Assembly: GCF_030814435.1 (NCBI RefSeq)
Contig: NZ_JAUSUW010000004.1
Location: 186,001 to 250,000 of the forward strand
DNA length: 64,000 nt
Source: Peteryoungia aggregata LMG 23059
GTDB taxonomy: Bacteria > Pseudomonadota > Alphaproteobacteria > Rhizobiales > Rhizobiaceae
Reading direction: 5' to 3'
Each line of letters starts with the position of its first letter. The stretch's first letter is position 1. The position numbers and the translations under genes are program-made. Shown here in pieces: positions 3,493 to 11,049 of the stretch. Below the pieces are notes generated by a model. It was given only the letters and a program-made list of their open reading frames with translations. It was not told the origin of the DNA and did not search any database.

Positions 3493-6400
3493 TACTTCTT
3501 CAGCTGCTCCTTGAGAGCCGCGAGCTTGGCGAAAGGCGAATCCGGATCAACAGGCTTCTCCTTGCGCGGCGGCTTTGCCTCGAAGCGTGCCGGCTGCGAC
3601 TTGTTGTTGTCGCGCTCCGGTCGCGGACCACGGTCCTTGCGGTCGCCACGATCCTGGCGGTCACCCTTGCCGGCGAACTTGCCACGATTGTCGTCTCGAC
3701 GCTCACCGCGATTGTCGGAACGGCGATCGTCGCGACGGCCTTCGCCACGCTTCTCGCCAGCGGCCTCGCCGCCTTCGCGCGGAGCCGGGTTGCGCTGGCC
3801 CTGCGGACGGCGATCGCCACCCGGACGGCCTGTGCCACGCTGGTTGTCGTTGCGACCACCCGGACGCCAGAGAAGAACCGGCTTCGGCTCGGTCGGCTCG
3901 GCCGACTGCTCTTCGGCAGCGGCAGGCTCAGCCGCTTCAGCGGCAACCGCTGCAGCAGGCTCTTCGGTCACAGCAGCCGGTGCCTCGCCTTCGGCAGATG
4001 CCTCCACGGATTGATCGGCATCATCGACGGTGTCGTCGCCCTTTTCGGCAACCGCCGGAGCCTCAGCCGCAGCAGAACCGGTCTGCGCGCCGAGGAAGGC
4101 AGCAGCCTCTTCGGCCGAAACGCTGTCGGCACGATAGCCGAGACCCTTCAGGATCTCTTCCATGTCGTCAGGCGTAGCACCCAGAATGGAAAGCATGGCC
4201 GTCGTCGTCGTGAAGCGGCGGCCGTCATAGGCGCCATCAGGACGTGCCGGCGAACCGGGCTTCCACTGCAGGAGCGGACGGATCAGGTCAGCGAGACGCT
4301 CGAGAATGTCGATGCGCACCGCGCGCTTGCCGAGGAAACGGAAGCCGGCGAGCTTGTAGAACATGCGCTCGAAGCTCGGATCGGTGACGACAGAGGTACG
4401 ACCGGCAGCGAGCACCGGGATCAGATCGCCATAACCCGGCTTGTCGAGGCCGTCGTTCTTCAGCGCCCAGAGCAGCGTAATCAGTTCGGCAGGGGCCGGC
4501 TTCAACAGCGCCGGCATGAAGATGTGATAGGCGCCGAAGCGCACGCCGTAGCGACGCATGGATGCACGACCATCCTGGTCGAGTGTCTTTACGTCGTCCG
4601 CCACATCACGACGGAAGAGCACACCGAGGTTCTCGACGAGCTGGAAGGCGAGACCCTTGGCCAAGCCCTGCAGGTCTTCGGCGCGCGAAAGGTCATCGAG
4701 CGGCTTCAGGACGGTCGAGATATGATGATTGACGAAACGCTCGACGCGGGCGGCGACATGATCGCGGGCAATGCCGGTCAGCTGTTCGTCTGCAAGCAGG
4801 ATGACGCGTGGATGAAGGATGTGATCGGTACCCGTCAGGCGGGCAACCGGGTCACCCACCCAGCGAACGAGGCCGTCCGAACCGATGGCAAGATCGCTGT
4901 TGCCGGAGGCATGCAGGCGCGCGGCGCGCGCCTCGAACTCAAGCGCCAGCGCCTTGTAGGCGGCCGCCTGGACAGCCTTGGCGTCCGGACCATCCATGCC
5001 GGAAATCGGCGTGAACCGGAAACCGGAGAGTTGTCCCATGGCATGGCCTTCCACGAAGACATCGCCGTTCACACTGATTTCAGCTTCCAACATTGCATTC
5101 TCTCTTAAGCGCTTCATGAGCACAGATGTCCTGCGATCAACAAAGCGTTTCGTCAACCGTTCATGTAACGCATCGGACAATCGGTCTTCGATTTCCCGCG
5201 TCTTTTCTTGCCAGTGTGTCGGATCGGCAAGCCAGCCGGGCCGGTTCGACACGTAAGTCCATGTTCTGATCTGGGCGATCCGCGCCGAAAGCGTGTCGAT
5301 CTCGCCATCAGTCCGGTCAGCCCGGCGCACCTGTTCACCGAGGAAATCCTCGTTCACGGTACCCCGCCTGACCAAATCAAAATAGAGACTCTGAATCAGA
5401 TCTGCATGCTGTGCAGGCGTAATACGCCGATAGTCGGGCAGCGCACAGGCTTCCCAGAGTTTTTCCACCCGTTCGGGTCGGTCCGTGATGTCGGAAATCT
5501 CAGGATAGCGCGACAGGTACTCGAGCGCCTGCTGATCGGTCGCCGGCAGCGCGCGCGTCAGTCCTTCAACGCGCGGCACCGCATCGAGGCTTCGCTGCAG
5601 ACCGGCAATCGACGAGAAGTCGAACTTCTCCGTCCGCCATTGCAGAACTTTGACGGGATCGAATTGATGGGTTTCAAGCCGCTCCACCAGTTCGTCATCG
5701 AAAGGATCGACGCGACCCGTAACGCCGAACGTGCCATCCTTGATGTGCCGCCCAGCACGGCCCGCGATCTGGCCCAGTTCGCCCGGATTGAGATTGCGGA
5801 ACTGGTAGCCGTCGAATTTGCGGTCCTGGGCAAAGGCGACGTGGTCGACATCGAGATTGAGCCCCATGCCGATGGCATCGGTGGCGACGAGATAATCAAC
5901 ATCGCCCTCCTGGTAGAGGCCAACCTGGGCGTTGCGCGTCCGTGGGCTAAGCGCACCCAGCACCACGGCCGCTCCGCCGCGCTGGCGCCGAATGAGCTCG
6001 GCGATCGCATAGACCTCGTCAGCGGAGAAGGCGACGATGGCGGTGCGCTGCGGCAGGCGGGTAATCTTTTTCTGGCCTGCATAGAAGATCTGCGAAAGCC
6101 GGGGGCGCTCGACGATGGTGATGCCGGGCAGAAGCTGGATGAGGATCGACTTCATCGTCGCAGAGCCAAGCAGAAGCGTCTCTTCACGCCCTCTCAGATG
6201 CAGCAGGCGATCCGTGAAGATATGCCCGCGCTCAAGATCGCCGGCGAGCTGGATCTCGTCGATCGCGACGAAGGCAACTTTCGTTTCCCGTGGCATGGCC
6301 TCGACGGTGCAGACGGAAAAGCGGGCGTTCGGAGGGCTGATCTTCTCTTCGCCGGTGACGAGAGCGACGTTCTTGACGCCGACCCGCTCGACAACACGGG

Positions 6401-6542
6401 TATAGACCTCACGGGCCAGAAGTCTGAGCGGCAACCCGATCATGCCAGACCCATGCGCGACCATGCGTTCGATGGCGAAATGGGTCTTGCCCGTATTCGT
6501 TGGCCCCAGCACAGCGTTGACGCCGCGGCCACTCAGGATCAT
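3492..6542 (-). CDS. Suv3-like superfamily 2 RNA/DNA helicase with a long disordered basic tail
   Basis: About 1016 residues. Visible helicase motifs: Walker A GPTNTGKT (13-20), DEIQ (95-98), SAT (about 127), and motif VI QIAGRAGR (258-265). The arrangement, followed by a Suv3-type C-terminal region, matches the alphaproteobacterial relatives of mitochondrial Suv3, a degradosome helicase. From about residue 850 the protein is Ala/Glu-rich, then strongly Arg/Gly/Asp-rich, ending in a lysine-rich helix. Start choice: ATG at 6542 begins MILSGRG, but an in-frame TTG at 6557 has GGAG six bases upstream and may be the true start. The gene is coupled to the S4 protein downstream. Confidence 0.88.
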   Translation of the reverse strand: MILSGRGVNAVLGPTNTGKTHFAIERMVAHGSGMIGLPLRLLAREVYTRVVERVGVKNVALVTGEEKISPPNARFSVCTVEAMPRETKVAFVAIDEIQLAGDLERGHIFTDRLLHLRGREETLLLGSATMKSILIQLLPGITIVERPRLSQIFYAGQKKITRLPQRTAIVAFSADEVYAIAELIRRQRGGAAVVLGALSPRTRNAQVGLYQEGDVDYLVATDAIGMGLNLDVDHVAFAQDRKFDGYQFRNLNPGELGQIAGRAGRHIKDGTFGVTGRVDPFDDELVERLETHQFDPVKVLQWRTEKFDFSSIAGLQRSLDAVPRVEGLTRALPATDQQALEYLSRYPEISDITDRPERVEKLWEACALPDYRRITPAQHADLIQSLYFDLVRRGTVNEDFLGEQVRRADRTDGEIDTLSARIAQIRTWTYVSNRPGWLADPTHWQEKTREIEDRLSDALHERLTKRFVDRRTSVLMKRLRENAMLEAEISVNGDVFVEGHAMGQLSGFRFTPISGMDGPDAKAVQAAAYKALALEFEARAARLHASGNSDLAIGSDGLVRWVGDPVARLTGTDHILHPRVILLADEQLTGIARDHVAARVERFVNHHISTVLKPLDDLSRAEDLQGLAKGLAFQLVENLGVLFRRDVADDVKTLDQDGRASMRRYGVRFGAYHIFMPALLKPAPAELITLLWALKNDGLDKPGYGDLIPVLAAGRTSVVTDPSFERMFYKLAGFRFLGKRAVRIDILERLADLIRPLLQWKPGSPARPDGAYDGRRFTTTTAMLSILGATPDDMEEILKGLGYRADSVSAEEAAAFLGAQTGSAAAEAPAVAEKGDDTVDDADQSVEASAEGEAPAAVTEEPAAAVAAEAAEPAAAEEQSAEPTEPKPVLLWRPGGRNDNQRGTGRPGGDRRPQGQRNPAPREGGEAAGEKRGEGRRDDRRSDNRGERRDDNRGKFAGKGDRQDRGDRKDRGPRPERDNNKSQPARFEAKPPRKEKPVDPDSPFAKLAALKEQLKK

Positions 6543-6716
6543 GGGTTGCGTATTCAATGACCGCTCCGCTTGTCGGGGCCGCGTTTCCTGGAAACCGACG
6601 CCCTTGGCCAACACATGGCGACGAACAGGGGCAAAGGCAAGGCGCTTGTCGCGATCACCCCAGAATTCCTTGCAAACCCTTGATCGGAATCAGCTTTCCG
6701 AATCGAGAACAGTCTG

Positions 6717-6776
6717 GGAACGAATCAGAGACGAATCGACGACTCCCGTGAATTCTGCATTTGTTCACGGCTAGAT
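6717..6776 (+). repeat. 60-bp intergenic element, copy A
   Basis: Aligns without gaps to 8445-8504 at 42 of 60 positions. Both copies begin GGAAC, continue with two 11-bp direct repeats of the form GAATCgacgAC (each with a GANTC site), and end TTTGTTCAC-nn-CTAGAT followed by a TGGAA. Confidence 0.6.
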
Positions 6777-6859
6777 GTGGAAGCCGGGTGCGGCATTCAC
6801 ACCAGATGCTGAATCCCCCTCCACCATCAATCGACGGCCACCTTCCTGGAAAGCTCAGT

Positions 6860-6885
6860 GGAACAATGGAGAACAGTTCCACGTT
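6860..6885 (+). promoter_or_regulatory. EcfG/RpoE2-type general-stress promoter of the hydrolase gene
   Basis: GGAAC (6860-6864), 17-nt spacer, CGTT (6882-6885). This fits the alphaproteobacterial general-stress sigma factor consensus (GGAAC-N18/19-TT). The predicted transcript would start about 14 bases before the ATG at 6906, just ahead of the GAGGTGAAG ribosome site. GTGGAAC and GTTCCAC around it also form a dyad, and a weaker GGAAC-N17-TGTT reads on the opposite strand. Confidence 0.65.
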
Positions 6886-6905
6886 CCGCCGCCGAGGTGA
6901 AGCTG

Positions 6906-7982
6906 ATGACATTGTCCCTACCACCCGCTGAGTGGATCGGAAAAAGAAAGCTGGATCAGGATTATGTCCTGATCCACGGCATGGTTATGGCCCCATCCTT
7001 CTGGCGCACCTATGCGCCGCAGGCTGTCCGCAGGGCCAACAGTGCTGCTTATGCATTGCCGGGACACCATCCCTGGAAACTCTCCGATCCTGGCCAGCCC
7101 TTGACGCCCCAGGCAGTTGCGGCAGCCTATGCCGACGCTATCCGGCGGGACTTCGGGGGGCGACCCGTCACCCTGATCGGACACTCGACCGGGGGCTTCG
7201 TATCGATGCTGATCGCGATCCATTTCCCCCAACTGGTGAAGGCGATCGTCCTGGTTGGCGCCTTTGCCTGCGGTCGCTTTGAGGGACAGGAGCGTCTGCC
7301 GGCTCGCCTGCTGAGAATGCCGCATATCGGCCCTTTCCTGTTTCGCCGGCTCTTTCTGCGCTGGATCTCCTCCAGCGAGCAGTTCCGCTGGGGGTCGATC
7401 GCATGCGTCTTCGACAAGCGTTGCCCCTGGCAGAACGAGCGCGCCGTCTTGGCGATGGAGGACGTCCGGCTCCAGTTGCAACAGGCAAGACCCGAGGATA
7501 TTGCCGCCTGCATCCAGTTCATGTCGGAAACGACATTGCTCGCCGATTTGCCCGCGATCAGACTGCCAGTCCTGAATATCGTCGGGGCCGAAGACGCCAT
7601 CGTACCACCCGCTCATCAGCTGCGCGTCTCCAAGCTGTTGCCGCAGGCGCAAACTGTAGTGCTCCGCAACTGCGGCCATCTGCCAATGGTCGAACATCAG
7701 GCTCTGACGTCCGACACGATCAGCGCCTTTGTTGACGGCATGTCAGCTGCGGAGGGCAGACGTCAGCGTCGAGAGACCACAATCATGGATCTGGCGACCG
7801 CAGGCCTTTTCAGGCTGCTGGATGCAACCGTGCACCCGACGGAACAAACGCCCTCCAGTCGCGTTCAACCAGCACAAGAGATCATAGTTCATCCAGGCTC
7901 AGGAGAGGGTCCACATGAGTACCATCCTCATCGTTATATTAATTCTGCTGCTGATCGGCGCACTGCCGAATTGGGGACATAG
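6906..7982 (+). CDS. Alpha/beta hydrolase, probable general-stress protein
   Basis: A 358-residue alpha/beta-hydrolase. The triad is visible: Ser94 in GHSTGG (92-97), Asp230 in GAEDAIVPP, His258 in CGHLP. An oxyanion-type motif HGMVM is at about residue 24. The substrate cannot be named. The ATG at 6906 is preferred over one at 6858 because it follows GAGGTGAAG and because the EcfG-type promoter at 6860-6885 would leave the earlier start untranscribed. The C-terminal 60 residues beyond the hydrolase fold have low predicted order, and the last 68 bases overlap the start of the next gene in another frame. It probably forms a stress operon with the DUF3309 and lipoprotein genes. Confidence 0.82.
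   Translation: MTLSLPPAEWIGKRKLDQDYVLIHGMVMAPSFWRTYAPQAVRRANSAAYALPGHHPWKLSDPGQPLTPQAVAAAYADAIRRDFGGRPVTLIGHSTGGFVSMLIAIHFPQLVKAIVLVGAFACGRFEGQERLPARLLRMPHIGPFLFRRLFLRWISSSEQFRWGSIACVFDKRCPWQNERAVLAMEDVRLQLQQARPEDIAACIQFMSETTLLADLPAIRLPVLNIVGAEDAIVPPAHQLRVSKLLPQAQTVVLRNCGHLPMVEHQALTSDTISAFVDGMSAAEGRRQRRETTIMDLATAGLFRLLDATVHPTEQTPSSRVQPAQEIIVHPGSGEGPHEYHPHRYINSAADRRTAELGT
7841..7865 (+). promoter_or_regulatory. EcfG/RpoE2-type general-stress promoter of the DUF3309 gene
   Basis: GGAAC (7841-7845), 16-nt spacer, CGTT (7862-7865), lying inside the 3' end of the hydrolase gene and about 50 bases before the DUF3309 start. It is the second such promoter within 1 kb. Confidence 0.65.
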
Positions 7983-8067
7983 CCGCAGCTGGGGCTACGG
8001 TCCGTCGGGAGGCTTGGGCCTCGTGCTGCTCATCCTCATCATCCTGATGCTGATGGGTCGAATTTGA
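7915..8067 (+). CDS. DUF3309 small membrane peptide
   Basis: A 50-residue ORF, short enough to be missed by ORF callers. It starts ATG at 7915 with AGGAGAGGG nine to fourteen bases upstream and ends TGA at 8065-8067. It has two hydrophobic helices (TILIVILILLLIGALP and GLVLLILIILMLMG) around a glycine/tryptophan-rich turn (WGHSRSWGYGPSGG), which is the DUF3309 pattern. Function of the family is unknown. The general-stress type promoter just upstream suggests stress induction, which is inference. It overlaps the hydrolase 3' end by 68 bases. Confidence 0.85.
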   Translation: MSTILIVILILLLIGALPNWGHSRSWGYGPSGGLGLVLLILIILMLMGRI

Positions 8068-8107
8068 CCTGAAGTGAAACCAACTCGACGAGAAAAGGTA
8101 TAGGACG

Positions 8108-8362
8108 ATGAAAAAGACCCTTCTGGCACTGGCATTGATCGCACCTCTCGCCGGCTGCACAGCAACCGAACGGGGCGCCGGCATCGGTGCGGCTTCCGGC
8201 GCCGTCATCGGGGGCGTAGCAACGGGCAATGTCCGCGGCGCAGCAGTCGGTGCGGCTGTCGGCGGCGTCGCCGGCGCTCTGATTGGCAATTCGCAGGAAC
8301 GTTCCGGCTATTGCGTCTACCGCGATCGCTACGGTCGTACCTATGAAGCTCGGTGCCGCTAA
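8108..8362 (+). CDS. Glycine-zipper lipoprotein
   Basis: An 84-residue precursor with a signal peptide ending in the lipobox LAGC (cysteine at residue 17). The mature part is a glycine-zipper run (GAGIGAASGAVIGGVATG, GAAVGAAVGGVAGALIG), followed by a short Cys/Tyr-rich tail. It resembles the small outer-membrane 17-kDa antigen/osmotic lipoprotein group. It lies 40 bases after the DUF3309 gene and before a strong terminator, so it is probably the last gene of the stress operon. Exact function unknown. Confidence 0.85.
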   Translation: MKKTLLALALIAPLAGCTATERGAGIGAASGAVIGGVATGNVRGAAVGAAVGGVAGALIGNSQERSGYCVYRDRYGRTYEARCR

Positions 8363-8379
8363 CAGGCAAAGCCATCGAA

Positions 8380-8416
8380 AAAGCCGTCGACCCCACCGGT
8401 TCGGCGGCCTTTTTCT
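8380..8416 (+). terminator. Rho-independent terminator of the stress operon
   Basis: GCCGTCG (8383-8389) pairs with CGGCGGC (8402-8408), one G-U pair, followed by a T run at 8410-8414. Confidence 0.8.
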
Positions 8417-8444
8417 TGTCTGCGTTAACCTGTCGACCAAAGAC

Positions 8445-8504
8445 GGAACGAATCGACGACGAATCGCGGACTGATCAGTTTTCCCGGTTTGTTCACCACT
8501 AGAT
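8445..8504 (+). repeat. 60-bp intergenic element, copy B
   Basis: Second copy of the element at 6717-6776, aligned without gaps, 70 percent identical. Here the two 11-bp units are GAATCGACGAC and GAATCGCGGAC. It lies between convergent genes. A perfect palindrome TATGGTTAACCATA follows at 8519-8532. Confidence 0.6.
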
Positions 8505-8574
8505 ATTGTGGAATAACATATGGTTAACCATAAGACACGGTGGATATTAAGAGTTTTGACGCCGTATGCTGGGT

Positions 8575-8928
8575 TTAATCCTTAACAGGAAGACCCAAAC
8601 CGCTGCGCAAGGCGCGATACTGTGCTGGACTGGTATCGGACATCGCCTCTTCGCGGCTGGAAGGCGTGTCCTGATAGTCTAAGGCGTGAGTGAACTGGCA
8701 CGCTGTGAGGTCGAAACGATGTCCAGCGATGAAGTTGTAAAAGTGCAGCCCTTCAGGGAGAGACGTCTTCAAGATGTGACCGCCGAACAGATCCTGGACG
8801 ACGAGACTGGTAACGCCGCACTGTCCGCGTGCCGCATTATCAATCGACCACAGGCTGGACGTCTCGATTGACCACGCCGCGTCCAGGCGTTTGGCAAACT
8901 GGCTTACATCAGCGATCAATTCCGACAT
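8575..8928 (-). CDS. YunG-like protein of unknown function
   Basis: 117 residues. The core (AWSIETSSLWSIDNAARGQCG, VVQDLFGGHILKT, HFYNFIAGHRFDLTACQF) matches the pattern of the YunG family known from Bacillus, whose role is not established. The conserved GQCGV cysteine, the buried Trp pair and the HFYN histidine suggest a small enzyme-like fold, but no catalysis is known. ATG at 8928 is the first start in frame. It stands alone: the lipoprotein gene converges on it and phbB lies 62 bases upstream in the same direction with a hairpin between. Confidence 0.7.
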   Translation of the reverse strand: MSELIADVSQFAKRLDAAWSIETSSLWSIDNAARGQCGVTSLVVQDLFGGHILKTSLPEGLHFYNFIAGHRFDLTACQFTHALDYQDTPSSREEAMSDTSPAQYRALRSGLGLPVKD

Positions 8929-8945
8929 GACCGACCCAGAACGTG

Positions 8946-8969
8946 AAAGGCCGGCACAAGGCCGGCCAG
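8946..8969 (-). terminator. Hairpin downstream of phbB
   Basis: GGCCGG and CCGGCC arms around a 7-nt loop, followed on the minus strand by CTTTC only, so it is a weak intrinsic terminator or a transcript-end stabiliser. Confidence 0.45.
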
Positions 8970-8990
8970 AGACGGATGCGCGAGTGATGT

Positions 8991-9716
8991 TCAGACGAAG
9001 AACTGCCCACCATTGGCAGAAATCGTTGAACCGGTAATGAAACCAGCATCATCGGAGGCGAGGAAGACAACGCAGCGCGCAATCTCTTCCGGCTCGCCGA
9101 GGCGCCCCACAGGGATCTGCGGAATGATGCGCTCGTTCAGCACCTTTTCCGGGATGGCGCGCACCATTTCCGTGCCGATATAGCCGGGGCAAATGGCATT
9201 GACGGTGATGCCCTTGGCGGCACCTTCCTGGGCCAGAGCCTTGGTGAAGCCGAGATCGCCGGCCTTGGCTGCGGAATAGTTCGCCTGCCCCATCTGGCCC
9301 TTCTGGCCGTTGATCGAGGAGATGTTGATGACGCGACCAAAGCTGCGGTCGCGCATGCCGGTCCACACCGGATGCGTCATGTTGAAGAGGCCGGTGAGAT
9401 TGGTGTTGATCACCTCGCCCCACTGCTCCGGCGTCATCTTGTGGAACATGGCGTCACGCGTGATGCCAGCATTGTTGACCAGCACTTCGACTGGGCCAAG
9501 AGCGGCCTCCACGGCGGCGATGCCGTCGACGCAGGCCTGATAGTTCGAAACGTCCCATTTGAAGACGGGAATGCCTGTCTCGTCCTCGAAGGCTTTCGCC
9601 TTTTCCTCGTTGCCGGCGAAGTTTGCGGCCACCTTGTAGCCGGCATTCTTCAAGGCGATCGAAATCGCAGCACCGATGCCGCGCGTACCGCCGGTTACCA
9701 AAGCCACTCTGCTCAT
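8991..9716 (-). CDS. phbB: Acetoacetyl-CoA reductase
   Basis: 241-residue short-chain dehydrogenase that reduces acetoacetyl-CoA to (R)-3-hydroxybutyryl-CoA with NADPH, the second step of polyhydroxybutyrate synthesis. Cofactor motif TGGTRGIG (8-15), NNAG (81-84), catalytic Ser134, Tyr147 and Lys151 (NYSAAK). The motif INGQKGQMGQANYSAAK and the C-terminal FITGSTISANGGQ are typical of PhbB. Start ATG at 9716 follows GGAGGA. It is downstream of phbA by 151 bases on the same strand, and the two probably form one operon. Confidence 0.96.
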   Translation of the reverse strand: MSRVALVTGGTRGIGAAISIALKNAGYKVAANFAGNEEKAKAFEDETGIPVFKWDVSNYQACVDGIAAVEAALGPVEVLVNNAGITRDAMFHKMTPEQWGEVINTNLTGLFNMTHPVWTGMRDRSFGRVINISSINGQKGQMGQANYSAAKAGDLGFTKALAQEGAAKGITVNAICPGYIGTEMVRAIPEKVLNERIIPQIPVGRLGEPEEIARCVVFLASDDAGFITGSTISANGGQFFV

Positions 9717-9867
9717 ACTGTCCTCCCCGTTTTTTCTGTATGGGTGCCCGTCTGGATCAACCGCTGCGGCTCCCGTCGCATCGGCATGACTTCGCCATCC
9801 CGGCTTCACACCGGGACAGAGCTTTGTGATGTCAAGAGTGAGCCGGTGCCATCCCTGGCTGTCCGGA

Positions 9868-11049
9868 TCAGAAGGCCTCTAGGCACATGGCAACGCCCAT
9901 GCCACCGCCGATGCAGAGTGTGGCGAGCCCCTTCTTGGCGCCGCGACGCTTCATCTCGAACAGCAGCGTGTTCAGTATGCGCGCGCCGGATGCACCGACC
10001 GGGTGGCCGATCGCGATCGCACCACCGTTGACATTGACGATCGAGGTATCCCAGCCAAGATCCTTGTTGACGGCGCAGGCCTGGGCCGCAAACGCTTCGT
10101 TGGCTTCAACGAGATCGAGATCGGAGATCTTCCAGCCGGCCTTTTCGAGCGCCTTGCGCGAGGCCGGGATCGGGCCCGTGCCCATGATCTTCGGATCGAC
10201 GCCGGCGGTGGCCCAGGAAACGATGCGGGCCAGCGGCGCAATACCGCGACGCACGGCTTCCGCCTCTGTCATCAACAGGGCAGCGGCGGCACCATCGTTG
10301 AGACCGGAAGCATTGCCGGCCGTGACGGTGCCTTCCTTGTCGAAGGCGGGTTTAAGCTTCTGCATGCTGTCGAGTGTTGCGCCGTGGCGGATGTATTCGT
10401 CCTGATCAACGGTAACGTCACCCTTGCGGCCCGGCACGATGACCGGAACGATCTCGTCCTTGAAACGACCCGCCAGCTGGGCGGCTTCGGCCTTGTTCTG
10501 CGAGGCGACCGCAAAGGCGTCCTGCTCGTCGCGGGTCAGTTGCCACTGACGGGCGACATTTTCGGCGGTCGTGCCCATGTGGTAGCCGTAGAAGGCATCA
10601 GTCAGGCCATCCTTGATCATGGTGTCGACCATCTTCAGGTCACCCATCTTGGTACCGTTGCGCAGATGTGCGCAATGCGGGGCCATCGACATCGATTCCT
10701 GGCCGCCGGCGATGATGATCTTCGCATCGCCCGTAACGATCTGCTGCATACCGATGGCCACGGCACGAAGACCTGAACCGCAGAGCTGATTAAGCCCCCA
10801 GGCGGTCGCCTCCTGCGGGATACCGGCCTTCATTGCAGCCTGCCGCGCCGGGTTCTGGCCCTGCCCGGCAGTCAGGATCTGACCCAGGATGACCTCGTCG
10901 ACCTCTGCCGCCTCGACGCCGGCACGCTCCAGCACGCCCTTGATGGCGATTGCGCCGAGATCATGGGCCGTGACGGACGCAAGAGCGCCGTTGAAGGAAC
11001 CGACCGGGGTTCGGGCGGCGCTCGCAATAACGATGGACGGGGTGCTCAT
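9868..11049 (-). CDS. phbA: Acetyl-CoA acetyltransferase (beta-ketothiolase)
   Basis: 393-residue biosynthetic thiolase that condenses two acetyl-CoA to acetoacetyl-CoA, the first step of PHB synthesis. Nucleophile Cys90 ([10 protein letters not shown]), His349 ([10 protein letters not shown]) and the second catalytic Cys379 (LCIGGGMG) are all present, and the length is standard. ATG at 11049 follows GGAGGATACG. It is first gene of phbA-phbB and divergent from phaR, the usual rhizobial arrangement. Confidence 0.97.

Follow-up and report, generated by a model that had tools for sequence, protein, structure and literature searches.

A hydrolase gene, a DUF3309 gene, and a lipoprotein gene of Peteryoungia aggregata LMG 23059 form an envelope-type cluster and very probably constitute a general-stress transcription unit with two EcfG (RpoE2) promoters that would respond to the same signal, the pair setting the dose and promoter 2 belonging to the DUF3309 unit itself. 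The sites, their positions and conservation, the nesting of one of them in a coding frame, and the presence of the regulator genes can be read directly from the DNA. It is nearly certain that the finding is real at this level and that it extends a known regulon by new members; what is new is an apparent family-wide tie between DUF3309 and the stress response, together with the putative nested promoter. In the window, the whole 64,000-nucleotide stretch of DNA that was analyzed, the module is laid out as follows:

6860..6885, plus strand: putative promoter 1, EcfG type (GGAAC 6860-6864, 17-nt spacer, CGTT 6882-6885; exact string)
6906..7982, plus strand: alpha/beta hydrolase, 358 aa (Pfam Abhydrolase_6, PF12697; E 1.9e-21, 78.2 bits against a gathering score of 26.3)
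7841..7865, plus strand: putative promoter 2, EcfG type (GGAAC 7841-7845, 16-nt spacer, CGTT 7862-7865; exact string)
7915..8067, plus strand: DUF3309 peptide, 50 aa, with two hydrophobic stretches (PF11752; E 5.6e-24, 84.4 bits against a gathering score of 22.3, matching 1-50 of 50)
8108..8362, plus strand: glycine-zipper lipoprotein, 84 aa, lipobox LAGC (Gly-zipper_Omp, PF13488; E 2.2e-10, 40.7 bits against a gathering score of 25)

The Pfam matches, all above their gathering scores, bear out the identities that an earlier note on this DNA had given to the three products. Ser94, Asp230, and His258 of the hydrolase fit a predicted catalytic triad and are invariant in 30/30 aligned loci. The DUF3309 gene is the sole copy found in its genome, and a search for a solved-structure relative of the peptide returned none at E 1; a lipobox ORF comes next after DUF3309 in each of 50 loci inspected, which belong to 49 same-genus genomes. 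The genes around the module, which encode a Suv3-type helicase, a YunG protein, and an acetoacetyl-CoA reductase, all lie on the minus strand. In S. meliloti, the gene for the RNA helicase SMc03877 presumably neighbors phbB. SMc03877 is named mgpS in the excerpt of its description that was covered (PMC4941405), and we label the Suv3-type helicase mgpS-type by that name and the presumed neighbor alone. A simple scan of positions 6550-9000 detected no sigma-70 promoter, and a terminator scan of the same interval detected one terminator, on the minus strand at 6952-6976. No known RNA family reached its gathering score in window positions 5000-10000 or in 7 of the 20 other-genus loci L123-L142; matches below threshold in the same scans, all weak, were to RNase MRP, PVT1, and snoRNA models.

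EcfG, NepR, and PhyR, the regulators of an EcfG/RpoE2 response, are encoded in the same genome, with EcfG identified by gene position: a 14-kb stretch (L040, C1:278000-292000) contains nepR, an ECF sigma gene, phyR, and an HWE kinase gene, and its place beside nepR and phyR suggests that the ECF sigma factor is EcfG. Six GGAAC-N16-CGTT sites occur there, each having 25-57 nt downstream a candidate start codon that leads into at least 40 open codons; as a test of the motif in this strain, the regulator locus is a positive control. If the starts taken as real are correct, NepR, PhyR, and a CsbD protein would begin 59, 69, and 79 nt from their sites, respectively. Neighbors in the stretch include DUF1328, CsbD, and DUF883-like proteins, the last just under the Pfam cut-off. 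In the excerpts covered of the R. etli EcfG1 study (PMC3892343), the EcfG1 motif is GGAAC-N16-CGTT and precedes 19 of the 56 transcription units with lowered expression in the mutant; the start of ReC64 was mapped by 5' RACE. Our sites resemble those promoters in their -35 and -10 boxes, in the 16-nt spacing at site 2, and in sigma factor class, but differ in the 17-nt spacer at site 1 and in the location of site 2 within a coding frame; hydrolase, DUF3309, and lipoprotein targets are not named in the same excerpts (PMC3892343). RpoE2 of S. meliloti, the counterpart in a relative and also a sigma factor under PhyR-type control, has a regulon in which 150 of 202 targets are of unknown function, according to the part of that study covered (PMC3616915). 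The nepR-ECF sigma-phyR-HWE kinase locus and the R. etli motif (PMC3892343, excerpts), combined with the conservation described below, strongly support the earlier reading of both sites as EcfG/RpoE2 consensus matches.

GGAAC-N17-CGTT at 6860-6885 and GGAAC-N16-CGTT at 7841-7865 had been reported to lie upstream of starts at 6906 and 7915, and these coordinates and spacers proved exact; ATG 6906 lies 46 nt after site 1, and ATG 7915 lies 74 nt after site 2. Both sites have GGAAC and CGTT boxes 16-17 nt apart, as an EcfG/RpoE2 promoter should, and a 17-nt spacing is allowed in this promoter class. Could both strings be chance matches devoid of function? Pattern counts leave room for this. GGAAC-N15-18-CGTT occurs four times in the window, where 1.8 would be expected, and four are reached in 13 of 100 shuffled versions; across the 4.83-Mb genome, GGAAC-N16/17-CGTT occurs at 75 sites versus 98 for the reversed control, so the pattern by itself is not enriched and constitutes weak evidence. 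When the 75 sites are placed at random, same-strand pairs within 981 bp are expected 0.56 times per genome and 0.007 times per given 64-kb window, with four observed in the genome, and at least one such pair arises in 43% of placements. The assertion that two matches within 1 kb are improbable as coincidence is thus valid for the local stretch but carries little weight for the genome as a whole. Further close same-strand GGAAC-N16-CGTT pairs are present in this genome at 88079/88268 (C4:86500-90000) and 182965/183060 (C8:181000-185500).

Relatives are more informative than counts of the pattern within one genome. Our same-genus set comprises 60 genomes, the window's own among them, and because these and the other relatives surveyed are related to one another, the counts that follow are not independent. 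A hydrolase gene is found at E 1e-20 in 35 of the 60, one copy (G040) being a fragment with stops, and site 1 is kept in 33 of the 34 genomes in which the gene is intact (own genome counted). The 30 best hydrolase loci all have both exact sites, with a spacer of 17 nt at site 1 and 16 nt at site 2 in every locus; the four remaining intact loci display N17 (L083), N16 (L075 and L090), or no clear site 1 (L077, the most divergent hydrolase locus at 45% identity, which has just a CATT form at -145 and is excluded from the count). Among the 30 loci there are 26 distinct spacers at site 1 and 27 at site 2, and most spacer columns carry <1 bit; at site 2, GGAAC is in addition followed by AA in 30/30. 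Boxes that are kept around a free spacer in orthologous upstream regions are the conservation pattern of EcfG/RpoE2 promoters, and since both boxes persist in relatives while the surrounding DNA has diverged, the sites are almost certainly real.

Site 1 also has a rival reading. A dyad, TGGAAC-N11-GTTCCA, overlaps it at 6859-6881, and promoter 2 might be the sole stress promoter, with site 1 bound by another regulator through the dyad or used by another ECF sigma factor; the spacer of 17 nt, compared with 16 in all six sites of the regulator locus, is in keeping with this idea. However, the dyad is present in one of the 30 loci, the window's own, whereas the boxes with their 17-nt spacing are present in all 30, and the N16 form at two divergent loci and the recurrence of a 17-nt spacer at other DUF3309 sites in the family likewise argue against a different regulator. 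We consider this alternative improbable and favor two EcfG promoters, of which site 1 would be the first.

Site 2 accompanies the DUF3309 gene. The gene is found in 60/60 same-genus genomes, and GGAAC-N16-C(G/A)TT lies upstream of it in 58 (46 CGTT and 12 CATT, the latter common among relatives and counted here as a candidate variant of CGTT), being absent in G026 and G021; four control patterns were found upstream of DUF3309 in none of the 60. The 25 genomes without a hydrolase match have CGTT at site 2 in 13 cases, CATT in 11, and neither in one. For 24 of them, the distance from DUF3309 to the helicase gene on its upstream side is 272-793 nt, leaving no space for a whole hydrolase gene, and site 2 is kept in 23 of the 24 (G030, whose contig ends 512 bases upstream of DUF3309, is left out). 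Site 2 is also kept in G040, where the hydrolase is interrupted by stops, and in G001 and G034, which retain short hydrolase remnants (81 aa at 44% and 40 aa at 48%, respectively). The decayed gene and the remnants, all accompanied by site 2, fit loss of the hydrolase while the DUF3309 promoter stayed, although the hydrolase may instead have been gained in some lineages. We suggest that promoter 2 is better viewed as belonging to DUF3309 and the lipoprotein themselves, and it persists in genomes whose hydrolase gene is absent or degraded.

The association reaches across the family, by which we mean the group taken to be Rhizobiaceae in the wide sense. DUF3309 is present in 104 of 151 family genomes; among the best-scoring matches in those 104, with the window's own left out, all 29 loci, every one from another genus, have GGAAC-N16/17-C(G/A)TT no more than 150 nt before the gene (11 CGTT and 18 CATT), against a permuted-box null that averages 0.05 and never exceeds 3. 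Functionless matches would hardly recur before 29/29 DUF3309 genes of other genera, nor would both exact sites survive in 30/30 loci whose spacers diverged; on conservation (58/60 in the genus and 29/29 beyond it), we rule out chance, a reading that we find barely credible. In the class as a whole, DUF3309 occurs in 47 of 289 genomes, and outside the family the site precedes it in 4 of the 28 loci that could be located among the 29 best (again with the window's own left out). A general DUF3309-EcfG link across Alphaproteobacteria is unsupported by this count; the link holds up within the family and weakens outside it. These patterns suggest that DUF3309 is tied to the general stress response across the family and that, in the window's genus, the adjoining lipoprotein is tied to it as well. 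We know of no function for DUF3309, and a stress-type promoter before its gene would make the role of this small membrane-type peptide testable. We found no prior description of the tie in the parts of the open-access literature covered; DUF3309 is named in the covered part of a paper listing released proteins of Asaia.

The placement of promoter 2 is contrary to an intergenic picture: the hydrolase frame reaches 7982, past the DUF3309 start at 7915, making site 2 intragenic. The frame is open from the last conserved block through promoter 2 in 30/30 loci; the other two frames over the same stretch contain stops in 24/30 and 18/30. Measured from the DUF3309 start, the hydrolase stop falls at +68 nt in 16/30 loci and at +4 nt in 4/30, with the remainder lying 71 to 158 nt past the start in 4/30 (one of them, L037, with a doubtful DUF3309 start) or 12 to 30 nt before it in 6/30. 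Mean protein identity to the window's hydrolase is 72-75% in the body and 26% at residues 271-300, and then climbs through 39% and 48% to 62% in the part that covers promoter 2 and the DUF3309 start, a rise that plausibly reflects DNA constraint of another kind. In its tail, the hydrolase frame thus appears to stay open with little conservation of its own protein sequence, and a gene can apparently read across its neighbor's promoter without destroying that promoter. In bacterial operons, a second promoter within an upstream gene boosts expression of the downstream gene. Unlike ordinary internal promoters of this kind, the one proposed here would share its alternative sigma type with the promoter of the whole unit, and the frame over it is open even though the protein sequence is little kept. 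Downstream of promoter 2, the alignment of the 30 loci shows that conservation in the DUF3309 leader (7866-7914) is not limited to the ribosome site: there are further blocks, one CGGCACAAGA-like and one GGCTTAGGAGAGG, through which post-transcriptional control is possible.

In the established mechanism, phosphorylated PhyR takes NepR off the EcfG sigma factor under stress. We posit that the polymerase carrying EcfG freed in this way would start at two places in the module. Promoter 1, with a start near 6892, would give a long message that encodes the hydrolase, DUF3309, and the lipoprotein and has its 5' end nearly at the ribosome site; promoter 2, with a start near 7872 within the last part of the hydrolase frame, would give a short message for DUF3309 and the lipoprotein only. 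Both starts are placed about seven nt after CGTT, and we infer them, as we do sigma dependence, the shared message, and the common signal, from sequence features. With the same signal acting at both promoters, the outcome would be a difference in dose, with more DUF3309 and lipoprotein made than hydrolase. The earlier note had instead held that promoter 2 keeps DUF3309 and the lipoprotein separately inducible. A response of the pair to a signal different from that of the hydrolase would draw on the independence of promoter 2 from promoter 1, both in position and in the genomes that bear it, and on the conserved blocks of its leader; yet the boxes are the same at both promoters, so the same sigma factor is expected, and we regard a different signal as highly improbable. 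Separate inducibility thus lacks support: because the promoters look alike, promoter 2 would act as no separate switch but would add dose to a unit that should respond as one.

The module is flanked by an element that is separate from the stress promoters and is present in two copies in this genome, one on either side:

6707..6776, plus strand: array element copy A (GAAC-N7-GAAC at 6707-6721, two GAATC, ATTC-N7-GTTC at 6752-6766, CTAGAT)
8435..8504, plus strand: array element copy B (GACC-N7-GAAC at 8435-8449, two GAATC, TTTC-N7-GTTC at 8480-8494, CTAGAT)

Elsewhere in the genome, a search allowing up to one mismatch finds no left half, and the right half is matched once, with two mismatches. 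Among relatives, the left half is found in 55/60 same-genus genomes and in 98/151 family genomes, which represent 75 of 109 genera; the control matched none of the genomes listed. In 20 other-genus loci (L123-L142), picked because they had matches, the array adjoins the helicase gene in every case; 19 have two to four copies and one (L142) has one clear copy, a phaA or phaB match lies nearby in 18, and the spacing between copies is 213-283 bp in 21 of 23 cases. The layout is rigid, with 42 nt from the core to TTTGTTC in 126 of 131 measurements among 133 distinct copies, and across copies the second pair is NTTC-N7-GTTC and the end is CTAtAT-like. The left end, GAAC-N7-GAAC, is exact in 73/133 copies, and no other distance of GAAC between 6 and 20 occurs more than once; at the right end, GTTC has an exact partner in 7/133, and copy B has one altered left half. 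The alphaproteobacterial LexA motif is GTTC-N7-GTTC, the reverse complement of GAAC-N7-GAAC, in the part of its description covered (PMC3323433), and in this genome both recA and lexA are likewise preceded by GAAC-N7-GAAC. By our reading, the array resembles tandem LexA-like operators and is a candidate for such a function; the rarity of exact right-hand pairs, the altered half in copy B, and the lack of a sigma-70 promoter in the scan of 6550-9000 speak against it. Copy A faces the hydrolase, with no terminator detected by a simple scan of the DNA from there to promoter 1, so DNA damage could induce the module by read-through. That the stress module was inserted into an old LexA-like operator array beside the helicase gene, with read-through from copy A joining the SOS and general stress responses, is a tentative idea that we judge rather unlikely. 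If it were true, the array would represent a previously undescribed SOS-controlled element in this family; we found no description of it in the parts of the open-access literature covered.

GANTC is dense in the array, at 25.5 per kb in the 133 distinct copies versus 1.1 per kb in the window, a density due in part to a search core that itself holds two GAATC; a link to CcrM methylation is possible. We also considered a location of the array at the replication origin or terminus, which is unsupported: in one single-contig relative, sampled as 20 segments of 15 kb, G+C skew at the array falls among the positive samples from 226 to 2720 kb, with one low-G+C sample at 453 kb set apart, and in the window the skew has no clear switch at the array. 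The sample set apart (L174, G052:C1:453000-468000), 15 kb of that relative's chromosome, has a G+C content of 0.41, compared with 0.60-0.63 in the other 19, and is perhaps a recent insertion.
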